Shown: positions 9,827 to 21,213 of the stretch, piece by piece
Layout of the letters: the number at the start of each line of letters is the position of its first letter
Position numbering within the stretch: the first letter of the stretch is position 1
IMG/VR virus record: IMGVR_UViG_3300034013_000427
Location: 1-43,050 of that record
Origin: a virus
DNA: 43,050 nucleotides
Direction: 5' to 3' (one strand)
Program-made: the position numbers and the translations under genes
The notes under the pieces: model-generated
Seen by the model: the letters and a program-made list of their open reading frames with translations, nothing else
Database searches by the model: none
Told to the model about the DNA's origin: nothing

Positions 9827-9837
9827 ACAGTTAGCTA

Positions 9838-9990: not shown

Positions 9991-10026
9991 TTGGTTTGAT
10001 CCTTTCTAGATCGAGTTGTTATATAT

Positions 10027-10083: not shown

Positions 10084-10147
10084 GTGCCCTTAGATTATGA
10101 CCGTTATGTCTGAATTGTCCATAACGGCCCAACCTATCTTTATTTAG

Positions 10148-10458: not shown

Positions 10459-10783
10459 CTTCATCTTCGTCCTCCTCTTCTTCTTCATCAGGGTCTACGA
10501 TGTAATCCCTGCTCATCATCCAATCTAAAACTTCTTCTTGATGTTGCTCGGCGCCCCACTCTAGAGAGAAGCCCATACCAGCCTCTACAGCCTCACACAG
10601 GTGGTCCCACATCTCGTCTTGGGTTGCCTTGGCAACATAGGTGTCATCGTCTAGGATGTTATTAATAGTTGACCATGTCCATAGCCAAACAAGCGATAGG
10701 CCAAGGTCGGTGGTGTCTAGAATTTCTAAACATTCATTTAGTTTATCTTTATCTTCAGGCTTCACCACGTGCTCCAATCGCAA
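10451..10783 (-). CDS. Acidic protein with Asp/Glu tail (110 aa)
   Basis: The C-terminal 15 residues are almost all Asp and Glu, a DNA-mimic-like or counter-ion tail. The body is helical with several Trp. The ATG at 10783 overlaps the previous gene by 29 nt; a GTG near 10763 after GGAG is an alternative start. Function unknown. Confidence 0.55.
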   Translation of the reverse strand: MRLEHVVKPEDKDKLNECLEILDTTDLGLSLVWLWTWSTINNILDDDTYVAKATQDEMWDHLCEAVEAGMGFSLEWGAEQHQEEVLDWMMSRDYIVDPDEEEEEDEDEDE

Positions 10784-11033
10784 ATGATAGTTGGTATGTT
10801 AGTTCATATAGTGCTACTAGGGCGTCAAGGTACCCTTCGCATTCAGTACGGACCATAGAGTCCATTGCTTCTTCTGATTCTTCTTCCCGTTCGATTGCGT
10901 CTGCTAGTTCCTGCTCGGCAATTAGCATTAGATTTTTTAGTTCACCGTGCATTATATCTAATCCACTAACACCTGCATTAACCAAACGTTGCAAATGGGG
11001 CGGGAGCCCAAGGTCTTCCATAGTCATATCCAT
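10755..11033 (-). CDS. Hypothetical protein (92 aa)
   Basis: Helical, Glu-rich protein (EQELADAIEREEESEEAMD in the middle) that may form a coiled coil. ATG abuts the stop of the upstream gene. Function unknown. Confidence 0.55.
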   Translation of the reverse strand: MDMTMEDLGLPPHLQRLVNAGVSGLDIMHGELKNLMLIAEQELADAIEREEESEEAMDSMVRTECEGYLDALVALYELTYQLSFAIGARGEA

Positions 11034-11239
11034 TAATATACCCTTTCGTTATTATTCATTATATCAGTTGCCACTGACAATAAATGTTCGGTTGCTTCAA
11101 TTGCTCCTTGGAAGTAATCATCTGAAGGGTCATATTCATCATCCTTCAAAGGCTCCCCATTTTTAGTAGCCTCCCAATCTTGATTAAGACTAATTAGATG
11201 TAACTTCATATACTCTAGGAAATAAGATGATTTAGTCAT
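11033..11239 (-). CDS. Hypothetical protein (68 aa)
   Basis: Acidic helical protein with a central DDEYDPSDDYF stretch. Starts by overlap with the previous stop. Function unknown. Confidence 0.5.
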   Translation of the reverse strand: MTKSSYFLEYMKLHLISLNQDWEATKNGEPLKDDEYDPSDDYFQGAIEATEHLLSVATDIMNNNERVY

Positions 11240-11436
11240 TACTTAATTCCCTTCGTTTCAGCATAATGCTTAAGAGCCTTATTAATTAGTTCTCTGTTCT
11301 CTGCTTCTTCTTGTTCAACTTTTTGCTCATGTTCTCTAATTTTTTCTTCCATCTCAAGTTCGCTTTTAGCATTTTCCCATGCGCTAACTAGCATAAGCAT
11401 ACCAAATATAACAGCAAAAACCATCCATATTTCCAT
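11239..11436 (-). CDS. Membrane-anchored coiled-coil protein (65 aa)
   Basis: The start at 11436 is chosen because it forms TAATG with the upstream stop; a longer in-frame start exists at 11460. Residues 2-22 are a transmembrane helix (IWMVFAVIFGMLMLVSAW) and residues 25-60 a charged coiled coil. The layout resembles phage spanin or Rz-like and membrane scaffold proteins, but no family can be assigned. Confidence 0.55.
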   Translation of the reverse strand: MEIWMVFAVIFGMLMLVSAWENAKSELEMEEKIREHEQKVEQEEAENRELINKALKHYAETKGIK

Positions 11437-11594
11437 TAGTCGAAATACCCTTCTGCCCATAGTCCTTGTAAGAAATCATGGGCGGTTACTAGATAGTTAT
11501 GAATAGCAGGATTCTCATCAGGATTAATCAACAAGTCAGCTTGATATACTCCATATGTCATATCTGCTAAATCTTTTTGTGTATAACCTAGCAT
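11436..11594 (-). CDS. Hypothetical protein (52 aa)
   Basis: Short mixed protein starting MLGYTQKDLADMTYGVYQAD. Coupled on both sides by TAATG overlaps. Function unknown. Confidence 0.5.
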   Translation of the reverse strand: MLGYTQKDLADMTYGVYQADLLINPDENPAIHNYLVTAHDFLQGLWAEGYFD

Positions 11595-11824
11595 TATTTC
11601 TCCTCATCATATTCTAAATAGTATTGGTCGCCTGGATTTAAATCATAGAATAGATTAAATCTACCCTTTAAGTAATTGTTATCTGACATTTCTGCAAATC
11701 TAAAATCTGCAAACATTTGCCCTTCATCTAAATTAGAGTTGACCCAATCTTCGACAAGCATTTCTCCTATCTCAGAATATGTTGCGTCTATTACCATTTG
11801 ATTTTCATTCTCTAGAAAACTCAT
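11594..11824 (-). CDS. Hypothetical acidic protein (76 aa)
   Basis: Acidic protein with a Tyr-rich end (FYDLNPGDQYYLEYDEE). Overlaps the upstream stop by 4 nt. Function unknown. Confidence 0.5.
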   Translation of the reverse strand: MSFLENENQMVIDATYSEIGEMLVEDWVNSNLDEGQMFADFRFAEMSDNNYLKGRFNLFYDLNPGDQYYLEYDEEK

Positions 11825-12564
11825 TCGGTTCCCACCTTTCTATATTCGGGTACTTTAGTTTCTAAGTATATAGCATGGGTCTGACAAATTGCGACAGCAT
11901 CTAGGTCAGCCTCTCCTAGCCAATTGCAATTGCCACAAATCTGACCGCAGTCATTGTCGCAATACTCCATTTGATTAGTTGCATCACAATCACGACACAT
12001 GTTGTCGTATTCTGATTCTGAGATAACTTCTCCACGGAGGAATTCCATTTCTCCACCCCAGCCTGTTTCTTCTTCATATGATAAAGTAAATAGTAATGTT
12101 GGGTATTGTGCAGATAGTTTAGATATAGCCCCAAGAGGTCGTGACCATGCAGTATTAAAGTTGTAATGGACTACATGATTTTCAGCGTTCTCATAATCTT
12201 CCATAGTTGTATCAGGATACTTATCATCCTCGGCTACAGCCACATCCCACTTAGTACCCCATTCACGGTTATTAAAGTTGTACCAGTCATTGGTCTCAAA
12301 CTTCATCCAGTCGGCAAATGAAGAGTCGGCGGAACTAGGAGGTTGTCCATGATACTCAGTATCAGATACACCATGGTCTACATATGAATAGATATTATGA
12401 AAAGCAAAGATAGGATTAACATACTTACGTTGCTTGATATTAAATGATAAATCACCATTAGATTGAACTGAATAAACAAATGGCTTATTCATTTGCTTAA
12501 TTAAAGATTTAACTTGGTCAGGATTTCCCTCAATAGTTAAACCGTTATATACCCAATTTGGCAT
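11821..12564 (-). CDS. YubB/DUF1281 ferredoxin-like protein
   Basis: From the ATG at 12564 (after AACGAAAGG) the 247-residue protein begins MPNWVYNGLTIEG, as DUF1281 (Api92/YubB) proteins do. It then has WYNFNNREWGTKWD near 92-105 and FNTAWSRPLGAI with a later GWGGE, the usual landmarks. Near the C-terminus a four-cysteine segment (CRDC, CDNDCGQICGNC) adds a zinc-ribbon not typical of the short family members. Such genes are widespread on plasmids and phages, role unknown. A longer frame to 12648 crosses the promoter and is rejected. Confidence 0.7.
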   Translation of the reverse strand: MPNWVYNGLTIEGNPDQVKSLIKQMNKPFVYSVQSNGDLSFNIKQRKYVNPIFAFHNIYSYVDHGVSDTEYHGQPPSSADSSFADWMKFETNDWYNFNNREWGTKWDVAVAEDDKYPDTTMEDYENAENHVVHYNFNTAWSRPLGAISKLSAQYPTLLFTLSYEEETGWGGEMEFLRGEVISESEYDNMCRDCDATNQMEYCDNDCGQICGNCNWLGEADLDAVAICQTHAIYLETKVPEYRKVGTE

Positions 12565-12591
12565 TTTATATCCTTTCGTTGATATGTGATA

Positions 12592-12674
12592 ATTATACAT
12601 TGGACCACTGACAAATGGAATAGGATTGGCATGTGATACATGCCACATGATTCAACTTTGTGGTCAAGATCACA
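12592..12674 (-). promoter_or_regulatory. TGTCA-N11-TATAAT promoter with CRP-like sites, gene 12564
   Basis: TGTCA (12613-12609), 11 bp, TATAAT (12597-12592). CRP-type sites with one mismatch lie at 12632-12647 (centre 30.5 bp from the TGTCA box) and 12659-12674 (57.5 bp). Confidence 0.65.
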
Positions 12675-12678
12675 CAAA

Positions 12679-12722
12679 TTCCAGAGAATATAGTTGACAG
12701 TCGTAAAGACAATATGCTACCC
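12679..12722 (+). repeat. Tripartite element copy 4
   Basis: TTCCAGAG, 15 bp, CGTAA, 11 bp, TACCC. Starts 5 bp after a CRP-like site. Confidence 0.6.
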
Positions 12723-12743
12723 TCAAGTCTTTGCGGGCAATAG

Positions 12744-12770
12744 AAAACCCCCAGCTATGCTGGGGGTTAT
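12744..12770 (-). terminator. Rho-independent terminator
   Basis: On the minus strand AACCCCCAGC-ATAG-CTGGGGGTT is followed by TTCT, a 9-10 bp GC-rich stem with a T-run. It ends the 14253-12893 leftward unit. Confidence 0.85.
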
Positions 12771-12892
12771 GAATATGGCTGCTGATTTCCAACGAAAGAA
12801 ATAAACCGCTTTACTTAGCGCCTGGCCCTAAAGACTAATAGACGCACCATTTCATTTCTATATTAAAACCAGGACCAAGGTCCTAGGTCTAA

Positions 12893-13258
12893 TTATACCA
12901 TAACTAGTCGACTGTATTTATCTACAAATGACGCCAAGGATGATGTGAACACTACCGTGCTCAGGTCCTCTTCGTACAATGTAAACGTTTCGTTGGTCCA
13001 GTCAATTACGGGCACCTTATGTTCGTTGTCCCCTAGTTGGTTAACATAAATTCCCCAGCCTGTTGTCTGAGTCCAGTCTTCTCCAATTAGATTAGATATA
13101 GCAATACGTGTTGCATATGACTCGTCTTGCCAACGAGTTTCTGCAGCCTGCACAGCATTTGCTAATTTGGCTAGCATATTATGTCCAGCCCAGTGTCCAT
13201 ATAGAAATACTACATTTTCCTTGGAATCTCTGAATCCAAAGTTTGCTCTGTCTCCCAT
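12893..13258 (-). CDS. Phage protein with MGDRANF...LYGHWAG motif (121 aa)
   Basis: The opening MGDRANFGFRD and VVFLYGHWAGHNM near residues 16-28 recur, from memory, in small proteins of actinophages and other phages. The remainder is mixed alpha/beta. Role unknown. Stop lies 120 bases before the terminator. Confidence 0.6.
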   Translation of the reverse strand: MGDRANFGFRDSKENVVFLYGHWAGHNMLAKLANAVQAAETRWQDESYATRIAISNLIGEDWTQTTGWGIYVNQLGDNEHKVPVIDWTNETFTLYEEDLSTVVFTSSLASFVDKYSRLVMV

Positions 13259-13259
13259 T

Positions 13260-13448
13260 TTATTCTGCTTTCGTTAGTAGTTGATTTTCCTCGTAGTTGA
13301 GTAATTGTACCATTTCATGGGCCCAGTCCACAAGAGACTCGCCCTGTTTATTTTTATGGTGGCCGCAGAAGTAAAGAGAAAATGAATCTTTCTTTGCTTC
13401 CCACATAGCCTGAGCTGCACACTGGTCACACTTAAGCCATTCAGCCAT
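13260..13448 (-). CDS. DUF7455-like zinc protein (62 aa)
   Basis: Contains CDQCAAQAMW (CxxC at about 7-10) and YFCGHHKNK (about 26-34), the metal pattern of DUF7455 proteins found in actinobacteria. ATG at 13448 forms TGATG with the upstream stop; a GTG one codon earlier is possible. Function unknown. Confidence 0.6.
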   Translation of the reverse strand: MAEWLKCDQCAAQAMWEAKKDSFSLYFCGHHKNKQGESLVDWAHEMVQLLNYEENQLLTKAE

Positions 13449-13594
13449 CACAGTTTGCCACCTTCGATCATCTCAGATAGACGGTCAAGAATCCAAGAAT
13501 CGATATCATTAATATCAATCTCTGATAACTTTTCCATGATTTCATCACGAGCAAACTTGTAACCATCTGCCCAACCATCTTTATACTCTGACAT
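13448..13594 (-). CDS. Hypothetical protein (48 aa)
   Basis: Helical acidic protein starting MSEYKDGWADGYKFARDEI, preceded by AAGGAG. No family recognised. Confidence 0.55.
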   Translation of the reverse strand: MSEYKDGWADGYKFARDEIMEKLSEIDINDIDSWILDRLSEMIEGGKL

Positions 13595-13603
13595 AATCTC
13601 TCC

Positions 13604-13807
13604 TTAATAACCTGTGGTTTCGTGGTCTGATACATAAGATTCAGTTAAGTTGTACTTATCTCTAAGCCTACTTACTTTCTCAATACTACCAGTTCCGATG
13701 TTGAATGTCAACGCAGACATTGCTTGTGGGTCAAGTCCCGTTATCTCTGCATCCCAATACGCTCTCTGCATAGAGAGCATATCAGGAGCGGTAAGTTCAA
13801 AGTACAT
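13604..13807 (-). CDS. Hypothetical protein (67 aa)
   Basis: Starts MYFELTAPDM; mixed helix and coil. ATG overlaps the stop of the upstream gene (TAATG). Function unknown. Confidence 0.5.
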   Translation of the reverse strand: MYFELTAPDMLSMQRAYWDAEITGLDPQAMSALTFNIGTGSIEKVSRLRDKYNLTESYVSDHETTGY

Positions 13808-14454
13808 TAGTTCTCCCTTACATTACATACCTCAGTGTCAACAATTTCAATGTTGCCATTTTGTGAATCAACATAAAGATTGTCGTAGATTTCTTGTTCT
13901 ACATCTGTATCTGAATCAGCAAGTAAATCTAACTGAATAGTTCCGCTAACTTCAATTGTTGCAGACCACTCAACTTCTCTAGTTAACTCAATCTCAAGGG
14001 CTTCGGCAATTAAACGAAGTGTTTCTTGGTCATCTGAATCGCTATAGGCTTCAACAATAATATCTTTAACTGAAGCAATCTTATTTGTTAAGACTGAAGC
14101 AATTTTAGAGTTAGTCCGTGAGTTATGTAGTTCCCATTCAATGTTGCGAACCTTGTCGGTTGCATATTCAGGGTCAGAGTAATTGCTTACAATCTTATAG
14201 GTAACCAATAGGTCAGGGTTATATTCTACTGCAGGTGATACTGTTGTTTCCATTTGCTCCTCTTTCGTTGTTGTTGGTGTAATTGTAGCATGCTCCACTG
14301 ACAATAAGGTAGTCTTACGTCCGCAAGGGCATGTGAGTTCTGTCACACCTGATGGGAATCCAAACCCGTCAGATGATGTTAGTTCTATTAATGAATCGCA
14401 TTCATCTGGGTCACAGACAAAGGTGTACTTACTTGATACTAGTTCGTTGGTCAT
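13807..14454 (-). CDS. Zinc-ribbon protein with internal promoter and second start
   Basis: The 215-residue frame starts at a leaderless ATG 7 nt after the -10 of the promoter at 14462. The N-terminal 55 residues hold Cys14, Cys19, Cys42 and Cys44 (FVCDPDECD and TCPCGRKT), a metal site. Inside the same frame a second promoter (14282-14303), a GAAAGAGGAG ribosome site and ATG 14253 begin a 148-residue form without the zinc part. The C-terminal part is acidic and beta-rich. Two products from one frame are therefore likely. Function unknown. Confidence 0.6.
   Translation of the reverse strand: MTNELVSSKYTFVCDPDECDSLIELTSSDGFGFPSGVTELTCPCGRKTTLLSVEHATITPTTTKEEQMETTVSPAVEYNPDLLVTYKIVSNYSDPEYATDKVRNIEWELHNSRTNSKIASVLTNKIASVKDIIVEAYSDSDDQETLRLIAEALEIELTREVEWSATIEVSGTIQLDLLADSDTDVEQEIYDNLYVDSQNGNIEIVDTEVCNVREN
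14282..14347 (-). promoter_or_regulatory. Internal TGTCA-N11-TACAAT promoter with CRP-type site
   Basis: TGTCA (14303-14299), 11 bp, TACAAT (14287-14282). A perfect TGTGA-N6-TCACA site lies at 14332-14347, centre 40.5 bp from the TGTCA box. It lies within the coding frame and precedes ATG 14253. Confidence 0.75.
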
Positions 14455-14461
14455 AAAGAGA

Positions 14462-14526
14462 ATTGTACCAGGTCCCACTGACATTATCAAGGATTTCCAG
14501 GGAATTTAAATGTGAGTCGTAACACA
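14462..14526 (-). promoter_or_regulatory. TGTCA-N11-TACAAT promoter, leaderless start at 14454
   Basis: TGTCA (14483-14479), 11 bp, TACAAT (14467-14462) preceded by TGG. A one-mismatch CRP-type site lies at 14511-14526 (centre 39.5 bp away), overlapping tripartite copy 5. Confidence 0.65.
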
Positions 14527-14538
14527 CTTTTTGCCCCC
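14495..14538 (+). repeat. Tripartite element copy 5
   Basis: TTCCAGGG, 15 bp, CGTAA, 11 bp, CCCCC. Lies between the tRNA-Asp gene and the promoter at 14462. Confidence 0.6.
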
Positions 14539-14555
14539 TTAGCATTGAGGGCGCT

Positions 14556-14632
14556 TGGCGATCCATAACGGACTTGAACCGTCGACCTCTACCGTGACAG
14601 GGTAGCGCTCTAACCAACTGAGCTAATGGACC
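14556..14632 (-). tRNA. tRNA-Asp (GTC)
   Basis: Minus-strand cloverleaf: acceptor GGTCCAT pairing with ATGGATC (one G-U), D-arm with AGTTGG, anticodon stem CTACC/GGTAG around loop CTGTCAC (anticodon GTC), T-arm with GGTTCAAGTCC. The CCA end is encoded. It follows the DUF932 gene on the same strand and may be cut from its transcript. Confidence 0.93.
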
Positions 14633-14680
14633 TGGAAAAAATTGTGAGCAGTTTTTATTCATGCTCAGGAATTTATTTAT

Positions 14681-15688
14681 TTAGAACGCAGAAACTAATT
14701 TTTTAATTTTATTTTTTTCTGCGGTTAGAATTGGGTCAAAGCCTGATGCACCCGCCATAAGTGTTTCAGAATTGCCACGACCTGAACGATAGTAATCAAG
14801 GCGTTCAGTAAGTGCGTTGAATGCGCCCCACTTTGTTCCCTTGATATTAGCATTGGTTGGTGAGTTATGGTACAACTCATCAAGGAGCACGACTTTGTTT
14901 TCCCACTTAGTCAATGCAACTTTAGCAGCATCCTTATCTGGCTTAGGATAAATTGTCTGAATCAACTTTGAGAATTCAGCATCAGTGATTGATTGAGAAT
15001 AAAGAGCCTGAGCCTCTTTCTCAAATTCATCAAAGTAACCAAGAGCAAGCCCAAGAGTTTCACGAGCAACTTGGATGCGACCTTCAACAGATTGCGTGTG
15101 GCGAATCTTGAAAGATTGCTTAGCATTCTTCATTGCAAGGTTAAGAGTGTTTTGGCATACAACACGAACAGGAGTAACAGCAGCCTGAACAGCAACTGAC
15201 CCGTCATGAGATGTCCAAACAATTAGATACAACTTAGTTGCATCATTTGCGCCTTGTGGGTCAAGCACCATTGTGCGAGGAATATCCACTGTACCGAATA
15301 CAACCTTACCGCTACGAAGTGAGCCAGCAGATTCCCAACGGCAATCAGCATTAGCATCATGAATTGCATCAGCGAATGCGAATAGTTCCTCATTCTGCAC
15401 AGGCTTGTAACGCTTTCCAACAGTTGCAAGCACATCAGTGCCATTGTTGAATGGGTTATCACGAATAACCAATTGAGCATTAGATACATCATTCCATGTA
15501 TCTGAGATATGGTCAGTTAGTGGAGACAAGCGAACATTCCAATTGGAAAGTTTTGCCTCATCTAACATCATTTGAGTTGTAACATCTTCATCTTGTGTAA
15601 AGATGCGATTTGCAAGGTTGTGCCATGCAGGTGCGCCACGAAGTGCGAATGCAACTTCGCCATTTTCCATTTCTAGATTATGAGCCAT
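14681..15688 (-). CDS. DUF932 phage/plasmid-like protein
   Basis: The 335-residue protein begins MAHNLEMENGEVAFALRGAP and continues with the AWHNL segment, as in the DUF932 (TIGR03299-type) family found on many phages and plasmids. Middle motifs include GKRYKPVQNEELFAFAD near 91-107, VVFGTVDI, and AVTPVRVVCQNTLNLA near 176-191. The C-terminal half is helical. Proposed roles include replication or recombination support, but none is established. Own promoter at 15720. Confidence 0.8.
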   Translation of the reverse strand: MAHNLEMENGEVAFALRGAPAWHNLANRIFTQDEDVTTQMMLDEAKLSNWNVRLSPLTDHISDTWNDVSNAQLVIRDNPFNNGTDVLATVGKRYKPVQNEELFAFADAIHDANADCRWESAGSLRSGKVVFGTVDIPRTMVLDPQGANDATKLYLIVWTSHDGSVAVQAAVTPVRVVCQNTLNLAMKNAKQSFKIRHTQSVEGRIQVARETLGLALGYFDEFEKEAQALYSQSITDAEFSKLIQTIYPKPDKDAAKVALTKWENKVVLLDELYHNSPTNANIKGTKWGAFNALTERLDYYRSGRGNSETLMAGASGFDPILTAEKNKIKKLVSAF

Positions 15689-15719
15689 TTTTTACCTTTC
15701 GTTTGTTTGATTAGTTGTA

Positions 15720-15795
15720 AGTATAACAGATGCCACTGACATTGTCTATGATTAGTTACAATATGTCCGAATTGATCCATGTGATTAATCTCACA
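15720..15795 (-). promoter_or_regulatory. TGTCA-N11-TATACT promoter with CRP-type site, DUF932 gene
   Basis: TGTCA (15741-15737), 11 bp, TATACT (15725-15720) preceded by TGT. Perfect site TGTGATTAATCTCACA at 15780-15795, centre 50.5 bp from the TGTCA box. Confidence 0.8.
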
Positions 15796-15798
15796 AAA

Positions 15799-15842
15799 TT
15801 CCAGGGTTATCCACAAGTGGTCGTAACCCTGTGGATAACCCC
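15799..15842 (+). repeat. Tripartite element copy 6 with two inverted DnaA boxes
   Basis: TTCCAGGG, 15 bp, CGTAA, 11 bp, ACCCC. The spacers hold TTATCCACA (15807-15815) and its complement TGTGGATAA (15830-15838). The arms GGGTTATCCACA and TGTGGATAACCC form a perfect 12-bp inverted repeat. Confidence 0.75.
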
Positions 15843-15887
15843 TTAGCTTTGCGGGCCAGCTGCACATATGCAGCCAGTGTTAGATCT

Positions 15888-16142
15888 TTACAGACCTAAC
15901 TCATCCCTAGTCAATTGATTCTTGCGGTTAAAGTTTACAACTTCGGACGGGAGGTAAAGAGCAGTCGTTTTAGTCTTCTTTAAAGTATCATAGACATAAG
16001 CACGAACATTACCAAAGAAGTTACGTCGATTAGAAAATACTAATTCAGTTAAGTACTCTTTATCAACACCTTGCTCAGAATAGATTGTTAAATCATTTAA
16101 CTTGTTTTCATCATAAATTTCTACACGAAATCTATTTTTCAT
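15888..16142 (-). CDS. Hypothetical protein (84 aa)
   Basis: Basic beta-rich protein starting MKNRFRVEIYDENKLNDLTI, with a central RRNFFGNVRAYVYDTLKK. An AACAAAGGTAATAAA leader precedes the ATG. No promoter of its own is seen, so it is probably read through from the gene at 16661. Function unknown. Confidence 0.55.
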   Translation of the reverse strand: MKNRFRVEIYDENKLNDLTIYSEQGVDKEYLTELVFSNRRNFFGNVRAYVYDTLKKTKTTALYLPSEVVNFNRKNQLTRDELGL

Positions 16143-16238
16143 TTTATTACCTTTGTTAGTAGTTGTCCCCGAAGGGAGAGCAGTTTGGCGACTTACTCAG
16201 GTCGTTCGCAATTTATCGTTATGCGAGAACGATTTTAT
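16143..16238 (-). other. Spacer with imperfect hairpin
   Basis: Ninety-six bases. The complementary segments CGTTCGCA (about 16202-16209) and TGCGAGAACG (about 16222-16231) form an imperfect stem, a possible processing or weak termination site. No gene seen. Confidence 0.35.
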
Positions 16239-16661
16239 TTACAGATAACGAGCAATAGCATTGTAAGTGCTTGTGCTTACTGTTTCCTCATCTGTCATCT
16301 TTAGAATACGAATTGCGTTTTCCAATTCCTCTTTTATCTCATTGTATGAGTGGCGGTGGAGAACTTCGTAGTCCTTCTCAGGCTCTTTAGGAAAGTCTGA
16401 CTCATTAACTGTTAAATCAAAATCAACATTAAGTGTCTTGTTCCATTGACGATAGTTTGTGCGTAGGTTTTCTGCCTTAGCAAAATTAGCCATAGCAAAC
16501 TTTGCTACTTCTTTGCGCCACTTTTCTAAAGCCTTTTCGTGCTTTGCTTCGTTGGCTTCTTGTGATGCGTAATCGGCATTTAACTTTGTCAAGCGAGTTT
16601 CTAGTGCCTTGATTACCTTTGGTGTTGCTATCTTTACGCTAATTGCTTTCTGTCGTGCCAT
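16239..16661 (-). CDS. Coiled-coil hypothetical protein (140 aa)
   Basis: Residues 18-75 are a long charged helix (EANEAKHEKALEKWRKEVAK) suited to a coiled coil. The rest is helical with an acidic middle. Leader AACAACGAAAG and GGAAAC lie before the ATG. Function unknown. Confidence 0.6.
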   Translation of the reverse strand: MARQKAISVKIATPKVIKALETRLTKLNADYASQEANEAKHEKALEKWRKEVAKFAMANFAKAENLRTNYRQWNKTLNVDFDLTVNESDFPKEPEKDYEVLHRHSYNEIKEELENAIRILKMTDEETVSTSTYNAIARYL

Positions 16662-16700
16662 TTGTTTCCTTCTTTCGTTGTTGGTTGGTTTGGTTGAGTA

Positions 16701-16722
16701 ATTATAGCAGGGAGGTCTGACA
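16701..16722 (-). promoter_or_regulatory. TGTCA-N11-TATAAT promoter, gene 16661
   Basis: TGTCA (16722-16718), 11 bp, TATAAT (16706-16701) preceded by TGC. The upstream gene ends only 26 bp away and no CRP-type site is seen. Confidence 0.7.
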
Positions 16723-16747
16723 TTTCTGCGACCCCCCTGCCTTTAGA

Positions 16748-16930
16748 TTATACGCCTAGTAGTGTTTGAGCAGATACTGAAGTCCAGCGAGTTTCTTTCG
16801 TTGGGAGTTCTAGTAGCACACGCACCGAGCCAGATGTTTGTGGGTGGATTTCCTTAATCACACCTGTCTTTTTTGACTTTAGGGTGGTGAATAAATCGCC
16901 AACCTTGTAAGTGTATCCATTTACTGTCAT
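16748..16930 (-). CDS. Small SH3/KOW-like protein (60 aa)
   Basis: Sequence such as YKVGDLFTTLKSKKTGVIKEI followed by VRVLLELPTKETRW has the alternating pattern of a small beta-barrel, possibly nucleic-acid binding. Own promoter upstream. Family assignment is tentative. Confidence 0.55.
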   Translation of the reverse strand: MTVNGYTYKVGDLFTTLKSKKTGVIKEIHPQTSGSVRVLLELPTKETRWTSVSAQTLLGV

Positions 16931-16959
16931 TTATTGCCTCTTTTCTTTGTTAGGGTTGT

Positions 16960-17035
16960 AGTATAGCATTGGGGTCTGACATTAGTCTAGCCCTATCTCA
17001 TTATTTGAGAAAGTTATTGTGTGACCTTAGTCACT
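16960..17035 (-). promoter_or_regulatory. TGTCA-N11-TATACT promoter with CRP-like site, gene 16930
   Basis: TGTCA (16981-16977), 11 bp, TATACT (16965-16960) preceded by TGC. A CRP-type site with one mismatch (TGTGA-N6-TCACT, 17020-17035) is centred 50.5 bp from the TGTCA box and overlaps the stop of the upstream gene. Confidence 0.7.
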
Positions 17036-17290
17036 TTCAGGTAGCCAAGCGTCTAAGTGGTGCTGTTCGATAATAGCCCACGCGGGCGCATGAGAGTCAC
17101 CCTTATAAGATACGCCTTCAGGCATTTCGATCAACTTATTATAATCCTCATCATAGTAGGCATCAATAGCATCAATGCAAGGTTGCACCATAGAAAGCGG
17201 AACGGGTGGGTAATGATTACCCTGTAAGTGATAACCTAGTGCTACCTCTAAATCTAATTCAGTTAAATCTAATGCTGTATTGTATCCCAT
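17027..17290 (-). CDS. Hypothetical protein (87 aa)
   Basis: Acidic helical protein starting MGYNTALDLTELDLEVALGY. Start overlaps the stop of the upstream gene. Function unknown. Confidence 0.55.
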   Translation of the reverse strand: MGYNTALDLTELDLEVALGYHLQGNHYPPVPLSMVQPCIDAIDAYYDEDYNKLIEMPEGVSYKGDSHAPAWAIIEQHHLDAWLPESD

Positions 17291-17496
17291 TATTCTGCCA
17301 CCTTAAGAATTGCGTAGGAACCACGCTCATTTATTTTATCAAGTGTTGTCTTAAGAGCAGGCGCAATTAAATCCTTTAGCATAGACTCAAGAATTAAAAT
17401 CTGTGAGCCTTCGTCTAATTGTAAAAATTGCTTTGCTATTGGATGTTCCTCATCAAACTCAGTTACAAATCGGAGAGAGTGTTCTACTTTAGTCAT
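17290..17496 (-). CDS. Hypothetical protein (68 aa)
   Basis: Acidic helical protein. Leader CCAACAACGAAAGGC precedes the ATG. First gene of a two-gene unit. Function unknown. Confidence 0.55.
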   Translation of the reverse strand: MTKVEHSLRFVTEFDEEHPIAKQFLQLDEGSQILILESMLKDLIAPALKTTLDKINERGSYAILKVAE

Positions 17497-17525
17497 TTAT
17501 TGCCTTTCGTTGTTGGTATAAGAGT

Positions 17526-17600
17526 ATTATAGCCTATCCCACTGACAAATTGTGCAACACGCCCAAGCTTTATCTAATTTATTTTGTGATTAATCTCACA
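17526..17600 (-). promoter_or_regulatory. TGTCA-N11-TATAAT promoter with CRP-type site, gene 17496
   Basis: TGTCA (17547-17543), 11 bp, TATAAT (17531-17526). Perfect site TGTGATTAATCTCACA at 17585-17600, centre 49.5 bp away; the same 16-mer occurs at 15780. Confidence 0.8.
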
Positions 17601-17602
17601 AA

Positions 17603-17647
17603 TTCCAGGGGGTTGTGGATAACTGCCGTAAGCCTGTGGATAACCCC
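17603..17647 (+). repeat. Tripartite element copy 7 with two DnaA boxes
   Basis: TTCCAGGG, 16 bp, CGTAA, 11 bp, ACCCC. DnaA boxes TGTGGATAA at 17614-17622 and 17635-17643 run in the same direction, 21 bp apart. A hairpin CCCGCA-GTAT-TGCGGG follows. Confidence 0.75.
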
Positions 17648-17676
17648 GCAGTATTGCGGGCCTGCATAGCTATGCA

Positions 17677-17808
17677 TTACTCTGCATATTTATTTTTATG
17701 TTTGATCTTTCTAAAATATTTTTTCTTATTGCGAACAGGTTGCGCCGCATTACTGCGACGCAATTCCTGAATTCGCTTTACTTTATCTCGAAGTGAATTT
17801 TGGGACAT
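17677..17808 (-). CDS. Small basic protein (43 aa)
   Basis: Lys/Arg-rich (RNKKKYFRKIKHKNKYAE at the end), likely to bind nucleic acid. Overlaps the end of the preceding gene by 26 nt. Function unknown. Confidence 0.5.
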   Translation of the reverse strand: MSQNSLRDKVKRIQELRRSNAAQPVRNKKKYFRKIKHKNKYAE

Positions 17809-17974
17809 GATACCCACTCGCTTCATGAAATCTATTTACATCAAATCGTTCATTATCTTTTGCGAACATTTCCGCAAAATCATTTACCATTTTAGAAAAT
17901 AGTGCTGGGTGTGCTTTATCGCTTGCGAACTTTAAAATTTCTGCTACTGCGACATAATCTTTTCGTGTCATCAT
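17783..17974 (-). CDS. Hypothetical protein (63 aa)
   Basis: Helical protein starting with two Met codons; either could be used. Overlaps the previous stop by 4 nt. Function unknown. Confidence 0.5.
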   Translation of the reverse strand: MMTRKDYVAVAEILKFASDKAHPALFSKMVNDFAEMFAKDNERFDVNRFHEASGYHVPKFTSR

Positions 17975-18174
17975 TTAACTGATACCATTCCTGTTCTGTA
18001 GAAAACTTTTGTATAGCATTTGCCTGTTGGCGTGTAAATATTTACAGTTGAGTATTCGTTAGCAAATCCCCAATCGGTGAATAAGAAAAAGTTTTCCCAA
18101 GCACCAAATTCGCTTTCGTATTCTGCTGACCAATGAGGAGCGTGTCCGTCATAAGCACAAGTTAATTTATACAT
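17971..18174 (-). CDS. Hypothetical protein (67 aa)
   Basis: Aromatic-rich beta protein (WSAEYESEFGAWENFFLFTDW). Starts by TAATG overlap. Function unknown. Confidence 0.5.
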   Translation of the reverse strand: MYKLTCAYDGHAPHWSAEYESEFGAWENFFLFTDWGFANEYSTVNIYTPTGKCYTKVFYRTGMVSVK

Positions 18175-18317
18175 TAGTCATTTTCTCCGTTCCAAAATAG
18201 TGAGCCGTCATCTACGCAAGCGCAAGGCTCGCAATCAAAATCATTATCATTACCAAAAAAGATTACTCCGTGTCCGTGGCAATCTTGGCAATCTATTGTT
18301 AATACTGAGTTAATCAT
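18174..18317 (-). CDS. DnaJ-type zinc-knuckle protein (47 aa)
   Basis: Contains CQDCHGHG at about 10-17 (the CxxCxGxG repeat of DnaJ zinc domains) and CEPCAC near 29-34, making one complete zinc site. Coupled by TAATG to both neighbours. Function unknown. Confidence 0.55.
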   Translation of the reverse strand: MINSVLTIDCQDCHGHGVIFFGNDNDFDCEPCACVDDGSLFWNGEND

Positions 18318-18481
18318 TAGTGTTGTTCCTCGCAATCTTTGTCATAGTCAAATCCGCAAAAGTAGCAACCCATAAATTCTAGGTGTTCGATACAGTAATA
18401 CTTAAATTGACTTTCATCACAACAAAAATGTTGCTCGTCTGCGATTTCATAGAAATCGGTTTTGTCGATTATGTTTAACAT
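18317..18481 (-). CDS. Cysteine/histidine-rich small protein (54 aa)
   Basis: Has CC at about 20-21, CIEH at 30-33 and CYFC at 39-42, suggesting one or two zinc sites. First gene of the unit driven by the promoter at 18510. Function unknown. Confidence 0.55.
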   Translation of the reverse strand: MLNIIDKTDFYEIADEQHFCCDESQFKYYCIEHLEFMGCYFCGFDYDKDCEEQH

Positions 18482-18509
18482 AGTTTTCCTTTCGTTTGTT
18501 TATTTAGTT

Positions 18510-18531
18510 ATTGTATCAGTTAGCACTGACA
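18510..18531 (-). promoter_or_regulatory. TGTCA-N11-TACAAT promoter, gene 18481
   Basis: TGTCA (18531-18527), 11 bp, TACAAT (18515-18510) preceded by TGA. No CRP-type site in the 70 bp upstream. Confidence 0.7.
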
Positions 18532-18602
18532 AATTTTGCGAGGGTTCTTACTTACGACATTGGGCGAGGACTCCCTCTAAACTGCCCCTGTTTCGATTTT
18601 AT

Positions 18603-18815
18603 TTAATCGGAAGTTTTTACGGCTAAATAGCGGTAAGTATCTTTTAGATTTAGCGGTGCAGAATAAATTGGGCGTACCTGCACTTTGTAAGTATCTGCAT
18701 TTGCATACCAGACACTATCATTTTTTTCTGCTGAGATAATTTCTCCAGTAAGAGAATTTGAGCGATACATTTTTCCTACAAGTAGGCTTTCGATAGTATA
18801 GACATTTGCTGACAT
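18603..18815 (-). CDS. Hypothetical protein (70 aa)
   Basis: Start at 18815 chosen for AACGAAAGGCGG upstream; a longer frame to 18857 crosses the promoter. Beta-rich protein. Single-gene unit. Function unknown. Confidence 0.55.
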   Translation of the reverse strand: MSANVYTIESLLVGKMYRSNSLTGEIISAEKNDSVWYANADTYKVQVRPIYSAPLNLKDTYRYLAVKTSD

Positions 18816-18848
18816 TTGAGTCCGCCTTTCGTTGTTGTTATGTATGGA

Positions 18849-18934
18849 ATTATACACGAACCCACTGACATAATCTAATTACTAGCGAGTAATTCCACAT
18901 TTTGAGACGCTCAACTCATGTGATAAAAATCACA
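18849..18934 (-). promoter_or_regulatory. TGTCA-N11-TATAAT promoter with CRP-type site, gene 18815
   Basis: TGTCA (18870-18866), 11 bp, TATAAT (18854-18849). Perfect TGTGATAAAAATCACA at 18919-18934, centre 60.5 bp away. Confidence 0.8.
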
Positions 18935-18955
18935 AAATCTCGGGCGTGTCGTAAA

Positions 18956-19000
18956 TTCCAGGGGGTTGTGGATAAGTCCCGTAAGCCTGTGGATAACCCC
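18956..19000 (+). repeat. Tripartite element copy 8 with two DnaA boxes
   Basis: TTCCAGGG, 16 bp, CGTAA, 11 bp, ACCCC. DnaA boxes TGTGGATAA at 18967-18975 and 18988-18996, 21 bp apart. Hairpin CCCGC-TCTTTT-GCGGG follows. Confidence 0.75.
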
Positions 19001-19047
19001 GCTCTTTTGCGGGCGCATCAACTTTTGTCAAGTAGACACGCCGTTGC

Positions 19048-19143
19048 TTATTCGAAATCCTTAAAAATTTCTTCAAGCTTTAAGATTTGCTCATCGGTAA
19101 GATGATCAATTTCAATTGCTTTTTCAAATCCAAAAAAATCCAT
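19048..19143 (-). CDS. Very small acidic protein (31 aa)
   Basis: One helix (IEIDHLTDEQILKLEEIFKD). Coupled by TAATG to the upstream gene. Function unknown. Confidence 0.45.
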   Translation of the reverse strand: MDFFGFEKAIEIDHLTDEQILKLEEIFKDFE

Positions 19144-19337
19144 TATTCGTTTTCCATTTCTGCTAGATAATCCTCATGTTCAACTAATCCAATCGCAAAA
19201 GCAACAGGGTCGCAACATTCCAAAATTTCGGCGGGTGTAAAAGTTGAATAACCAATTTTTACAGTAGGATAAACATCATTTAGTAAATCAATAAAACTTT
19301 CTTTAATTTCTAAATCTTTTTCGAATTGTGATTTCAT
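19143..19337 (-). CDS. Hypothetical acidic protein (64 aa)
   Basis: Helical protein with CC at about 41-42. Starts by ATGA overlap. Function unknown. Confidence 0.5.
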   Translation of the reverse strand: MKSQFEKDLEIKESFIDLLNDVYPTVKIGYSTFTPAEILECCDPVAFAIGLVEHEDYLAEMENE

Positions 19338-19483
19338 TCGCTTAACTCCAAATCTCTTATGTCGGCAACATAAACATTATTTTTATTTATTCCGTATTTT
19401 AATTGAAATTGAAATGTATCAATAGCCTCATCATAGGATTCAGCCTCGACATTTATAAAAGCATTAAACTCATAAACTGGCAT
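19334..19483 (-). CDS. Hypothetical protein (49 aa)
   Basis: Starts MPVYEFNAFINVEAESYDEA; alpha/beta pattern like a small ferredoxin-like unit. Lies between coupled genes. Function unknown. Confidence 0.5.
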   Translation of the reverse strand: MPVYEFNAFINVEAESYDEAIDTFQFQLKYGINKNNVYVADIRDLELSE

Positions 19484-19485
19484 GA

Positions 19486-19665
19486 TTACCAACACTCCTC
19501 ACATGTGAATTTAGTAAAGTCTGCATCTTTTGCAAAAATCTCTAAATAGTTATTCGAACAAATTGTGCATGATAGCAAATAAGTATTTGCCTTTTGGTAC
19601 ATGTATGGATTAGAGTTAGATAACTCTCTATTCTCTAAAACCTCTGATGAAATTAAAATACTCAT
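19486..19665 (-). CDS. Zinc-ribbon small protein (59 aa)
   Basis: CTIC (about 33-36) and CEEC (about 55-58) form a two-knuckle ribbon. Overlaps the upstream stop by 4 nt. Function unknown. Confidence 0.55.
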   Translation of the reverse strand: MSILISSEVLENRELSNSNPYMYQKANTYLLSCTICSNNYLEIFAKDADFTKFTCEECW

Positions 19666-19847
19666 TTAGTTAAACTCCAATCGGTGTAAAATGGTAAGCG
19701 GTCATAGTCATCATAGAAATAAACTCTATCTATGTTCTGCTCGCATGTTTCGCAGAAAGTGTATTCGACATCTACGCCCATGCCATAGGTAGTAGATACG
19801 CTCTCCATGTGTGGAGTGTGTGTATGTGTATTTGTTAGTGTAGTCAT
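19662..19847 (-). CDS. His-rich, CxxC small protein (61 aa)
   Basis: Begins MTTLTNTHTHTPHMESVS with alternating His-Thr, then CETC near 32-35. The His run plus CxxC could hold metal. Start at 19847 follows GAAAGGTGG. Function unknown. Confidence 0.5.
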   Translation of the reverse strand: MTTLTNTHTHTPHMESVSTTYGMGVDVEYTFCETCEQNIDRVYFYDDYDRLPFYTDWSLTK

Positions 19848-19879
19848 TTGAGACCACCTTTCTTTTTCGTTATGGTAGT

Positions 19880-19966
19880 ATTTTACCACGGGGGTCTGAC
19901 ATTTATCTACCTACTAGCCAGTAATTCCAAGATGTGAGACGCTCAGCCTATGTGATAATTATCACA
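19880..19966 (-). promoter_or_regulatory. TGTCA-N11-TAAAAT promoter with CRP-type site, gene 19847
   Basis: TGTCA (19901-19897), 11 bp, TAAAAT (19885-19880) preceded by TGG. Perfect TGTGATAATTATCACA at 19951-19966, centre 61.5 bp away. Confidence 0.8.
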
Positions 19967-19970
19967 TAAA

Positions 19971-20014
19971 TTCTGGGGTTTTCCACAGATGCCCGTAACC
20001 CTGTGGATAACCCC
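19971..20014 (+). repeat. Tripartite element copy 9 with two inverted DnaA boxes
   Basis: TTCTGGGG, 15 bp, CGTAA, 11 bp, ACCCC. Boxes TTTTCCACA (19979-19987) and TGTGGATAA (20002-20010) face each other in a 14-bp stem with one mismatch. Hairpin CCCGC-TCTTTT-GCGGG and the inverted repeat GCTTGACA-T-TGTCAAGC (about 20031-20047) follow. Confidence 0.75.
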
Positions 20015-20062
20015 GCTCTTTTGCGGGCCAGCTTGACATTGTCAAGCCGACACGCCGTTAGG

Positions 20063-20188
20063 CTAGTGTGATCTTTCCGACTTTATGTGTTGCCATTCAT
20101 CTATCCACTCACGCACTACTATGCGCCCCATAATAAGGGCGGGGATAGCAATAGATAACTGCACTAGTGTAGTTAGTAGTCTATTCAT
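20063..20188 (-). CDS. Small membrane protein (41 aa)
   Basis: Residues 4-24 are hydrophobic (LLTTLVQLSIAIPALIMG), then a charged tail. Coupled to the upstream gene. Function unknown. Confidence 0.5.
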   Translation of the reverse strand: MNRLLTTLVQLSIAIPALIMGRIVVREWIDEWQHIKSERSH

Positions 20189-20388
20189 TAGACACCCCAC
20201 TCATCATTAGGTAATTTATCCATTTCATTGTTAATTAGAGATGCCCATCTATGCGCCTGTATTCTCTTATAAACCTTATAACCGATAAAAACAAGGGCAG
20301 ACAAGATAAGGAAAGCCCATGATAGGGATAGATAGAGGAAGTCCCCTAAGTCAAGCATTAAGCCGTATTCATTTAGTTCGATAGTCAT
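20188..20388 (-). CDS. Small membrane protein (66 aa)
   Basis: ATG 20388 follows GGGAGAATT. One transmembrane segment (LYLSLSWAFLILSALVFIGY, about 18-37) and a basic cytoplasmic-type tail. Function unknown. Confidence 0.55.
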   Translation of the reverse strand: MTIELNEYGLMLDLGDFLYLSLSWAFLILSALVFIGYKVYKRIQAHRWASLINNEMDKLPNDEWGV

Positions 20389-20390
20389 TA

Positions 20391-20573
20391 TTAATTCTCC
20401 CATGATAGTGCGTATAGTTTTGCTAGTTCGTCTGTATCTTCATCATTAAACTCATCTAGTGGAGGTTGTTCCTCATCTACCTCATCAAGGTATGTGTATG
20501 CGTCTGCGACATCTTCTTGGATAGTATCCCATTTAGATACGCTGTTATTCTCGTATGAGTATGCGTATGACAT
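20391..20573 (-). CDS. Acidic hypothetical protein (60 aa)
   Basis: Strongly acidic (DEVDEEQPPLDEFNDEDTDE in the middle), DNA-mimic-like in composition only. Coupled to the upstream gene. Function unknown. Confidence 0.5.
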   Translation of the reverse strand: MSYAYSYENNSVSKWDTIQEDVADAYTYLDEVDEEQPPLDEFNDEDTDELAKLYALSWEN

Positions 20574-20686
20574 TACTTATTCATCTCCTTAGCAATAGCC
20601 TCTGATTTAGTAAGTGCCTCTAGTGCTATGGCTAGAGAGGCGAGGCGTTGCGCCTCCACCATTTGCTTGTATTCATCTAGTGTCAT
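20573..20686 (-). CDS. Very small helical protein (37 aa)
   Basis: A single amphipathic helix. TAATG overlaps at both ends. Function unknown. Confidence 0.45.
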   Translation of the reverse strand: MTLDEYKQMVEAQRLASLAIALEALTKSEAIAKEMNK

Positions 20687-20835
20687 TAGTTAGTTTCTAC
20701 CTTTCGCAAGTGTGCTACTACATTTTTAGAAATCTTTTGTAAATCTTTAACTGTCTTAGTCATCTCATCTACGCTATTAGCGGTTTGAAATCCGAGGAAT
20801 TGTGAGCCGTCCCAAATTGTGTATGTTATTGTCAT
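20686..20835 (-). CDS. Hypothetical protein (49 aa)
   Basis: Starts MTITYTIWDGSQFLGFQT, then a basic helix. First gene of a five-gene unit; leader AACAAACGAAAG precedes it. Function unknown. Confidence 0.5.
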   Translation of the reverse strand: MTITYTIWDGSQFLGFQTANSVDEMTKTVKDLQKISKNVVAHLRKVETN

Positions 20836-20870
20836 TTACTGTTCTTCTTTCGTTTGTTGGTTATAATGGA

Positions 20871-20936
20871 ATTGTAGCCTATTGGGCTGACATTATCAAG
20901 CCGACACGCACCCTGTGGGGTGTGAGTTGTGTCACA
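20871..20936 (-). promoter_or_regulatory. TGTCA-N11-TACAAT promoter with CRP-type site, gene 20835
   Basis: TGTCA (20892-20888), 11 bp, TACAAT (20876-20871). Perfect TGTGAGTTGTGTCACA at 20921-20936, centre 40.5 bp away, overlapping the stop of the upstream gene. Confidence 0.8.
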
Positions 20937-21102
20937 TACCTCGCTTGAGGCGAATAGCCTCGACCTGTGCTAATTGCTCAGGTGTAGCGTTGCGGAAAGC
21001 CTGTACGCTCTCCCTTATCCAAGGTGACTTAGCCATAGCCTTTTCATGCGCTATGTGGCGAGCAAGGTCTTGCTCTGCCTTTATTCTATTTAGTGTATTC
21101 AT
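20932..21102 (-). CDS. Hypothetical protein (56 aa)
   Basis: Helical, starting MNTLNRIKAEQDLARHIAHE. ATG 21102 has leader AACAAACGAAAGG; the frame extends to 21147 but into the promoter. First gene of the leftward cluster. Function unknown. Confidence 0.55.
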   Translation of the reverse strand: MNTLNRIKAEQDLARHIAHEKAMAKSPWIRESVQAFRNATPEQLAQVEAIRLKRGM

Positions 21103-21137
21103 TAGATGAGTACCTTTCGTTTGTTTGTTATACCTTA

Positions 21138-21213
21138 AGCATAGCATGGGGGACTGACAAATTGAGGCACATCTCGGGCGTGTCGCAAAAAAATCTTTGT
21201 GATGCTCATCACA
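21138..21213 (-). promoter_or_regulatory. TGTCA-N11-TATGCT promoter with CRP-type site, gene 21102
   Basis: TGTCA (21159-21155), 11 bp, TATGCT (21143-21138) preceded by TGC. Perfect TGTGATGCTCATCACA at 21198-21213, centre 50.5 bp away. Confidence 0.8.

Follow-up and report, generated by a model that had tools for sequence, protein, structure and literature searches.

The window analysed here, a stretch of 43,050 nucleotides of viral DNA, carries in one minus-strand block of small genes a set of TGTGA-N6-TCACA palindromes that are probably sites for a CRP/GlxR-family activator of an actinobacterial host, placed in class-I-like positions. What the sequence provides is the identity of the sites, their upstream-only placement, their helical phasing and their conservation; it also divides the genes into those that have a site and those that do not, and no phage CRP could be detected. 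From these we infer an actinobacterial host that has a CRP, which reads the sites and activates, and an output that follows the cAMP or carbon state of the host. In the mechanism we propose, some of the phage's own promoters would each be preceded, at a whole number of helical turns, by a CRP/GlxR-type site, where the host CRP, presumably with cAMP, would help the host RNA polymerase in a class I manner.

Palindromes and core promoters in the window

The minus-strand core promoter in the window has the form TGTCAG-N10-TANNNT. Sixteen minus-strand TGTCAG boxes were listed and fifteen counted as promoters, the box at 18809 being dropped because it belongs to the ATG TCA GCA that begins a coding sequence. 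An earlier note on this DNA had placed palindromes upstream of most of these promoters, and ten of the fifteen do have a site; the five that lack one have their boxes at 9778, 11074, 11881, 16717 and 18526. Representative core promoters and all palindromes with at most one mismatch are as follows, with distances measured from the palindrome centre to the first T of TGTCAG:

9394-21213, minus strand, small-gene block, holding all minus-strand boxes and all sites with zero or one mismatch
17526-17547, minus strand, example core promoter TGTCAG-N10-TATAAT (box 17542-17547, -10 at 17526-17531)
15720-15741, minus strand, core promoter of the DUF932 gene (box 15736-15741, -10 at 15720-15725)
16701-16722, minus strand, core promoter without palindrome (box 16717-16722)
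11058-11079, minus strand, core promoter without palindrome (box 11074-11079)
9762-9783, minus strand, core promoter without palindrome (box 9778-9783)
14332-14347, minus strand, perfect palindrome, 36.5 bp upstream of box 14298-14303
15780-15795, minus strand, perfect palindrome, 46.5 bp upstream of the DUF932-gene box 15736-15741
17585-17600, minus strand, perfect palindrome, 45.5 bp upstream of box 17542-17547
18919-18934, minus strand, perfect palindrome, 56.5 bp upstream of box 18865-18870
19951-19966, minus strand, perfect palindrome, 57.5 bp upstream of box 19896-19901
20921-20936, minus strand, perfect palindrome, 36.5 bp upstream of box 20887-20892
21198-21213, minus strand, perfect palindrome, 46.5 bp upstream of box 21154-21159
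12632-12647, minus strand, one-mismatch palindrome, 26.5 bp upstream of box 12608-12613
12659-12674, minus strand, one-mismatch palindrome, 53.5 bp upstream of box 12608-12613, out of register
14511-14526, minus strand, one-mismatch palindrome, 35.5 bp upstream of box 14478-14483
17020-17035, minus strand, one-mismatch palindrome, 46.5 bp upstream of box 16976-16981

The site at 14511 shares bases with GTCGTAA, a distinct intergenic repeat, and that at 17020 overlaps the 3' end of an upstream ORF.

These seven perfect and four one-mismatch palindromes are all the sites of either class in the 43,050 bases. On rescanning, the coordinates given in the earlier note were all correct and its centre-to-box distances, which run as far as the last base of TGTCA, were exact. 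It estimated about 0.04 perfect sites by chance at equal base composition. In 100 dinucleotide shuffles of the window the mean was 0.05, and none reached seven; for sites with at most one mismatch the shuffles gave 1.72 on average against 11 observed, and again none reached the observed number. When two mismatches are allowed the window has 18 sites, below the 23.3 expected, and the enrichment is thus limited to close matches. Chance or a composition artefact has a negligible probability, being refuted by the shuffles and by the reversed-pattern and N7 controls given below.

The arms of the palindromes favour one sequence. Upstream of 166 clustered boxes, 42 of the perfect 5-6-5 inverted repeats have TGTGA arms, and any other arm sequence is seen at most three times. 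In the unselected centre of 81 sites, counted in both orientations and including loci fetched for carrying the motif, T has a frequency of 0.54 at +5, and at +7 T and A have frequencies of 0.59 and 0.27; a T at +5 and a T/A-rich middle are likewise preferred in E. coli CRP and GlxR sites. Variation affects 0-4% of sequences at half-site positions and 18-24% in the N6, a comparison that is partly conditioned since only rows with a site of at most one mismatch were taken. These observations support the palindromes being CRP-type sequences and putative operators. They also bear on the suggestion that the palindromes are RNA hairpins or terminator parts of the upstream genes, as the sites do lie between a gene end and the next promoter, beside repeats, some of them able to fold. 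Such an origin is very improbable, since the arm sequence is constant, whereas a hairpin would let it change as long as pairing was maintained, a stem of 5 bp is weak, and the phasing to the downstream promoter would be left unaccounted for.

Conservation among related phages

Perfect sites were found in all 16 phage records searched, seven of which were selected for having the motif, with four to eight sites in each and 102 in total, and the reversed-pattern control gave none. A scan of a viral collection returned at least 120 stretches with palindrome and box, and no palindrome with the N7 control spacing. The palindrome-bearing relatives are uncultured bacterial viruses from fresh water and form a family.

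At homology-selected loci, a tree of the DUF932 gene has sites in 64 of 64 rows of one clade and in three of 19 rows outside it, and loci more distant still keep the box promoters in 16 of 18 cases, with any perfect site in one. The earlier note had named promoters kept without palindromes in related phages as evidence against its reading; such promoters occur in the more distant relatives. Of the 190 perfect sites in 45 loci at the 59-76% level, only 89 have a TGTC[AG]G box downstream, and part of the remainder is phased to a box-less extended -10; in 13 of the loci no perfect site has a TGTC[AG]G box downstream. No alternative palindrome recurs in the site-less relatives, the commonest inverted repeat being found in four of 94 upstream regions. 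Since distant relatives have boxes without sites and five of the 15 window promoters are site-less, the putative CRP site is an extra input peculiar to certain lineages and does not switch the block as a whole.

The division between genes with and without a site is itself conserved. In ortholog counts that were not deduplicated and that include motif-selected loci and repeated pieces, perfect sites are present in 18 of 19 orthologs of group 0 (box 21154-21159), with the best site at 36.5 (2), 46.5 (12), 57.5 (1) or 67.5 bp (4); in 62/68 of group 2 (box 19896-19901); in 115/143 of group 3 (box 18865-18870), which includes a false in-ORF box; and in 88/95 of group 5 (box 17542-17547). For four further groups the counts of perfect sites, followed by those with at most one mismatch, are 25/36 and 34/36 for group 1 (box 20887-20892), 33/107 and 99/107 for group 6 (box 16976-16981), 107/119 and 112/119 for group 8 (the DUF932-gene box) and 79/126 and 105/126 for group 9 (box 14298-14303). 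By the same counts no site with at most one mismatch was found at orthologs of the boxes at 16717-16722 (0/115), 11074-11079 (0/61) and 9778-9783 (0/34), and a search for two-mismatch sites at six site-less groups gave none that was consistent.

We considered whether the CRP sites compensate for a weak or lost -35 element. This is contradicted by homology-selected loci, where the -35 is better at promoters with a site (means of 3.27 and 3.58 matches) than at those without (2.60 and 2.90).

Spacing of the sites and their likely reader

The earlier note had described spacing in helical steps and proposed that related phages be scanned for it; both the arrangement and its phase recur in related uncultured phages. 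At clustered, homology-selected loci, site-to-box distances repeat every 10.2-10.4 bp, with R=0.86 and p~5e-11 for 32 perfect-site distances and p~1e-20 for 73 distances with at most one mismatch. Within ortholog groups the distance changes by whole turns, one gene having its site at 36.5, 46.5, 57.5 or 67.5 bp. Some off-phase sites are also conserved: in group 5 the best site is at 41.5 bp in 40 of 95 rows, and in group 10 (box 12608-12613) it is at 53.5 or 54.5 bp in 68 of 82. In counts pooled without deduplication over the window and 80 DUF932 loci, the box-to--10 spacing is exactly 10 in 1041 of 1093 boxes (spacings of 8-12 being allowed) and 45 one-mismatch sites lie at 26.5 bp; pooled distances of 110.5-112.5 bp were discarded as an artefact of a false box within an ORF.

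The phase is probably set by something other than the TGTCAG box, since a number of box-less sites keep the register of boxed promoters. Specifically, box-less perfect sites of the 59-76% clade (89 unique contexts) gave 40 distances to an extended -10, with 16 at 51.5-53.5 and 10 at 71.5-73.5 bp, which is that register; the minus-strand control has a recurrent value of its own (104.5, nine times).

Of 482 perfect sites in the 80 closest loci, 477 are followed on the gene strand by a box, which is strict in 431 cases and has one hexamer mismatch in 46; none of the 482 overlaps a strict core promoter. This bears on whether the host CRP might bind in order to repress or silence the promoters, for example until cAMP falls. 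CRP-family proteins both activate and repress, and in M. tuberculosis repression goes with binding near the start site (PMC4117774). Here the sites avoid the core promoter, and an upstream, helically phased placement is the geometry of activation as set out in PMC6301791 and PMC4117774, so that repression appears quite unlikely. With respect to the predicted start site the palindromes are centred at about -54.5, -64.5, -74.5 and -84.5, and the class I positions of E. coli are given as -61.5, -71.5 and -81.5 in PMC6301791; the register is therefore about 3 bp off the E. coli optimum, where the start sites are predicted and the E. coli polymerase may not match that of the host. Of the switching by a host CRP from class I positions that the earlier note had suggested, the CRP-type sequence, the upstream placement and the helical phasing stand, the extension to the whole block does not, and the class I positions are qualified by the offset of about 3 bp.

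The reader is likely to be a host protein, since no CRP gene exceeds the cut-off in 16 phage records. The CRP family (PF00325) had matches below the cut-off in three of these records (best E 0.059), and the cNMP-binding domain (PF00027) passed it in none of 16; the two sets of 16 records, all of unstated completeness, have nine in common, and the window's own record is a 43-kb fragment. Sigma-70 region 2 (PF04542) likewise had no match over the cut-off in 16 records. WhiB, an actinobacterial marker, is present in 15 of 16 phage records, which points to an actinobacterial host. A scan of genome contigs found a single bin, the cyanobacterial L208, as a candidate host; as the only WhiB match in that bin is on the phage contig, we took the contig to be mis-binned. 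Phages E7 and F5 of 'Ca. Planktophila' (PMC10202952) were absent among the best 30 matches of a WhiB protein search.

A non-CRP DNA-binding protein encoded by the phage could instead read TGTGA-N6-TCACA. In favour of this, the perfect sites of phage contigs G002, G014 and G023:C31, with nearly all boxes, are confined to one block of small genes each, and many phage proteins have no Pfam match. Moreover, besides WhiB, the proteins scanned from the 117-kb record G002 include one with a helix-turn-helix domain (HTH_17, E 2e-4) and one with a weak Xre/MbcA/ParS match (E 0.0076). Against such a reader, no CRP/FNR-type domain was found in six-frame searches or in the Pfam survey of G002, outside which lay 43 of 186 selected ORFs, mostly structural, and the central bases of the sites have CRP/GlxR preferences. 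WhiB also occurs in many Streptomyces relatives, three of which, in the part of their sequence read, have no perfect palindrome (two) or a single one. A phage-encoded reader is therefore unlikely, and we favour the host CRP/GlxR-type activator.

Relation to known systems and significance

The CRP, GlxR and Mycobacterium CRP regulons (PMC6301791, PMC4117774) share with the phage sites the TGTGA-N6-TCACA sequence, the upstream position and a periodicity of about 10.5 bp; the phage arrangement differs in being carried by a virus, in its register and in having a TGTCAG spacer box in the core promoter. A viral parallel is that of cyanophage Pho boxes read by the host PhoBR, where the phage also carries sites for a host regulator before several genes; as described in PMC10976474, a putative Pho box was found at seven of 14 up-regulated genes and PhoB bound three promoters. 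In contrast, the present putative sites are of CRP type, are strictly phased to a fixed core promoter and come from phages of inferred actinobacterial hosts. The middle promoters of T4, with their MotA box and sigma appropriation, are alike in having an AT-rich flank, a box by the -35 region and an extended -10 (about half of those of T4), but TGTCAG is fixed 10 bp from the -10 whereas the MotA box lies at 12 +/- 1, and no CRP input to the T4 promoters is given in the passages of PMC2988021 consulted.

Streptomyces phages of the Stanwilliamsviridae type resemble the window in their DUF932 gene (51% identity in Riptide, 48% in Yaboi and 38% in Comrade), in their many small genes, most with an intergenic gap of their own, and in the glycosyltransferase and ribonucleotide reductase genes that adjoin the block. 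They differ in that Riptide and Yaboi have no perfect palindrome in their first 50 kb and, judged by eye, conventional -35/TAGACT-type promoters, and Comrade has one palindrome in 49 kb. We found no description of CRP/GlxR sites in such phages among the titles and abstract openings of the open-access literature returned by the terms used.

More speculatively, and with considerable doubt, the palindrome could be a movable CRP operator cassette, gained and lost by promoter and by lineage in whole turns, such that a subset of phage genes follows host cAMP and the phage-specific TGTCAG box provides a second, CRP-independent control at the same promoters. The host CRP might also contact a factor on the TGTCAG box.

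If the favoured reading is true, freshwater phages of a widespread family read the central carbon and energy regulator of the host at as many as ten promoters within a single genome segment, in a layout stricter than that of the cyanophage Pho boxes. The alignments would then be a natural experiment on the geometry of CRP and RNA polymerase, in which helical phase is kept and distance changed at many promoters, and would give access, at the level of sequence, to the way in which phages of lake bacteria fit infection to host nutrition. CRP-like sites set whole turns of DNA upstream suggest that viral gene expression is adjusted to the metabolic state of the infected cell.

Candidate CRP-type sites and promoters in the window

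The earlier note had placed seven perfect and four one-mismatch TGTGA-N6-TCACA palindromes, candidate operators of CRP/GlxR type, in the window, and we found a site at each of these positions and no further ones with zero or one mismatch in the whole window. By chance, 0.05 perfect sites would be expected, against the seven observed. Every one of the sites lies in a minus-strand block at about 9.4-21.2 kb, coding for many small proteins and one DUF932 protein (E 4e-56). It was also right that most promoters have a site upstream, as 10 of 15 minus-strand promoter-like TGTCAG-N10-TANNNT sequences do. These 15 promoters (9778-21159) have the TGTCAG box at about -28 to -23, in the -35/-10 spacer, and an extended -10 a fixed 10 bp away; a sixteenth minus-strand box, at 18809, was dropped as a promoter, being the ATG TCA GCA with which a coding sequence starts. 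Other features noted in the window are:

15807, 15830, 17614, 17635, 18967, 18988, 20002: DnaA-box-like 9-mers TTATCCACA, three pairs and one single
9157, 10061, 12700, 14516, 15820, 17625, 18978, 19992: intergenic repeat with a GTCGTAA-like core
9265-9328: additional copy of this repeat
14556-14632, minus strand: tRNA-Asp gene, inside the block between two CRP-type promoters

The 9-mers, which we take to be DnaA-box-like, sit just upstream of four CRP-type sites in the window, and 397 occur in 1.30 Mb (80 DUF932 loci), clustered 60-130 bp upstream of promoter boxes. The repeat recurs between genes with the plus-strand layout TTCCAGGG ... GTCGTAA ... GCCC, folds well in only some copies and is overlapped by the CRP-type site at 14511.

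Helical phasing of site and box

Eighty loci of related phages, chosen by DUF932 homology, were analysed together with the window, allowing box to -10 spacings of 8-12. The spacing was exactly 10 in 1041 of 1093 boxes (1025 on the plus strand, 16 on the minus), and 438 of 489 perfect palindromes lay 15-130 bp upstream of a box. Of the 482 perfect sites in the 80 loci, 431 are followed on the gene strand by a strict box, 46 by a box with a one-mismatch hexamer and five by none; 0/482 overlap a strict core.

For the phasing statistics, perfect-site distances within 75 bp, from site centre to the first T of the box, were taken from clustered, homology-selected loci only (n=32). They fall at 26.5 (1), 35.5-36.5 (16), 45.5-47.5 (7), 56.5-57.5 (4) and 67.5 bp (2), with two off phase at 42.5 and 49.5. 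The helical phase that the earlier note had described recurs in related phages: among periods from 7 to 14, 10.4 bp fits best, and there the Rayleigh test gives R=0.86 and p~5e-11. With up to one mismatch, 73 distances from clustered, homology-selected loci gave p~1e-20 and a best period of 10.2, and a set including motif-selected loci agreed, with p~2e-12 for 44 perfect distances from 166 clusters. Recurrent off-phase sites occur at 41.5 in the ortholog group of the promoter with box 17542 and at 53.5/54.5 in that of box 12608. In two further ortholog groups the distance shifts by whole turns: 36.5, 46.5, 57.5 and 67.5 in group 0, and mainly 36.5, 46.5 and 56.5, also 68.5, in group 17.

Distribution and conservation of the sites

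In ortholog groups whose rows are not deduplicated and partly motif-selected, the DUF932 gene retains a site with at most one mismatch in 112 of 119 orthologs, three of the five site-less window promoters belong to groups with none (0/115, 0/61, 0/34), and in the groups of the other two it is rare (8/71, 1/39). Among rows having a site with at most one mismatch, a count thereby partly conditioned, deviation from the group consensus affects 0-4% of sequences at half-site positions, 18-24% at the central six and 10-36% in the flanks.

A further 63, more distant loci were chosen with the L208 DUF932 protein as the homology reference. All 45 loci at 59-76% identity to it carry one or more perfect sites, 190 in total; only 89 of the 190 have a TGTC[AG]G box downstream, spread over 32 loci. 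Related phages with the promoters and without the palindromes, which the earlier note had set against its reading, do exist: at 45-56% identity, 16/18 loci have at least one box (nine have five or more) and 1/18 any perfect site, a single one in L346, away from boxes. A DUF932 tree, dereplicated at 96% to 83 rows, was rooted at midpoint and has several unsure long branches. Counting every perfect palindrome within a locus, one clade has sites in 64/64 rows (support 100/100) and the remainder in 3/19 (L331 seven; L346 and L238 one each). Several of the seven in L331, a 96.5-kb contig, are at phased distances; this lineage outside the main clade suggests that the site was acquired a second time, or exchanged.

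Among named phages, those of Streptomyces are the nearest relatives, including Stanwilliamsviridae (Yaboi, Comrade), with a best DUF932 match of 51% identity and the best 30 WhiB matches at 43-49%. Whereas the window has TGTCAG-box promoters, in the first 50 kb of each of the Streptomyces relatives Riptide and Yaboi the promoters look conventional by eye and there is no perfect palindrome. WhiB, treated as a marker of actinobacterial phages in passages of PMC6802176 and PMC10202952, is present in 15 of 16 phage records searched; these 15 measure 97-117 kb, and the one without a match is the window itself, a 43-kb fragment. L208 is a 110-kb phage contig (CAINGU010000031.1) within a MAG labelled cyanobacterium; it looks mis-binned, as it carries the single WhiB match found in the 5.4-Mb bin.

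Perfect sites are confined to one block in each of the phage contigs G002, G014 and G023:C31, with one box outside it in G014 and two in G023:C31; in G014 the block is at both contig ends, as if the cut point fell within it. One 124,540-base contig has a DUF932 gene near both ends (L341, 1-12490; L342, 107521-124540), which suggests a block within a long terminal repeat; the Streptomyces relatives, with two places in each record, give a similar hint.

Core promoter and putative regulator

The box, preceded by WWW and followed by TGnTATAAT, recurs across a wide phage group, including relatives lacking CRP-type sites. In site-less relatives an exact TTGACA stands 16-18 bp upstream of the -10 at 10/64 clustered boxes, which places the box in the -35/-10 spacer; the two site-bearing sets have 0/56 and 2/129. 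A weaker -35 at promoters with a site is contradicted, since these retain a TTGAAA-like -35 that matches better than at palindrome-less promoters. Phage WhiB is a candidate reader of the box.

Across L287-L331 (the 59-76% loci), 101/190 perfect palindromes lack a downstream TGTC[AG]G box; some of these are in phase with an extended -10 that has no box, and many are in other places, such as close to a recurrent TATAATA stretch. Among 40 listed distances of box-less perfect sites in this clade, 26 are 51.5-53.5 or 71.5-73.5 bp from the extended -10. Because this is the register of boxed promoters (36.5+16, 56.5+16), RNA polymerase, not the box, probably sets the phasing.

Neither sigma-70 region 2 nor a cNMP-binding domain gave a match at E 0.1 in the 16 records searched for WhiB, and Crp HTH gave none over the cut-off in 16 records, nine of them shared (three weaker matches, best E 0.059). 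A Pfam survey of 143/186 selected ORFs of G002 (117 kb) found no CRP-type domain; its DNA-binding candidates were WhiB, one HTH_17 protein (E 2e-4) and a weak Xre/MbcA/ParS match. None of the open-access literature listed in our searches describes CRP sites in phages of this kind. Cyanophage Pho boxes are a precedent for phage use of a host regulator, and passages of PMC10976474 report binding of host PhoB to some and warn that predicted Pho boxes are unreliable without binding tests, which applies to the candidate CRP-type sites too.

The phage sites share the periodicity of E. coli class I promoters, where, according to PMC6301791, CRP cooperativity is strong at -61.5, -71.5/-72.5 and -81.5/-82.5, modest at -64.5 (5.8-fold) and near nil at -66.5 and -76.5. 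With the first base of the -10 set to -12, the phage centres are predicted at -54.5, -64.5, -74.5, -84.5/-85.5 and -95.5, about 3 bp off that register on predicted start sites. In Actinobacteria CRP may have a different contact partner, or a factor on the box may be different. We infer the identity of the reader, activation and cAMP dependence, and our best reading is that host CRP/GlxR, with cAMP, would bind upstream of a subset of promoters and aid RNA polymerase there in class-I fashion.
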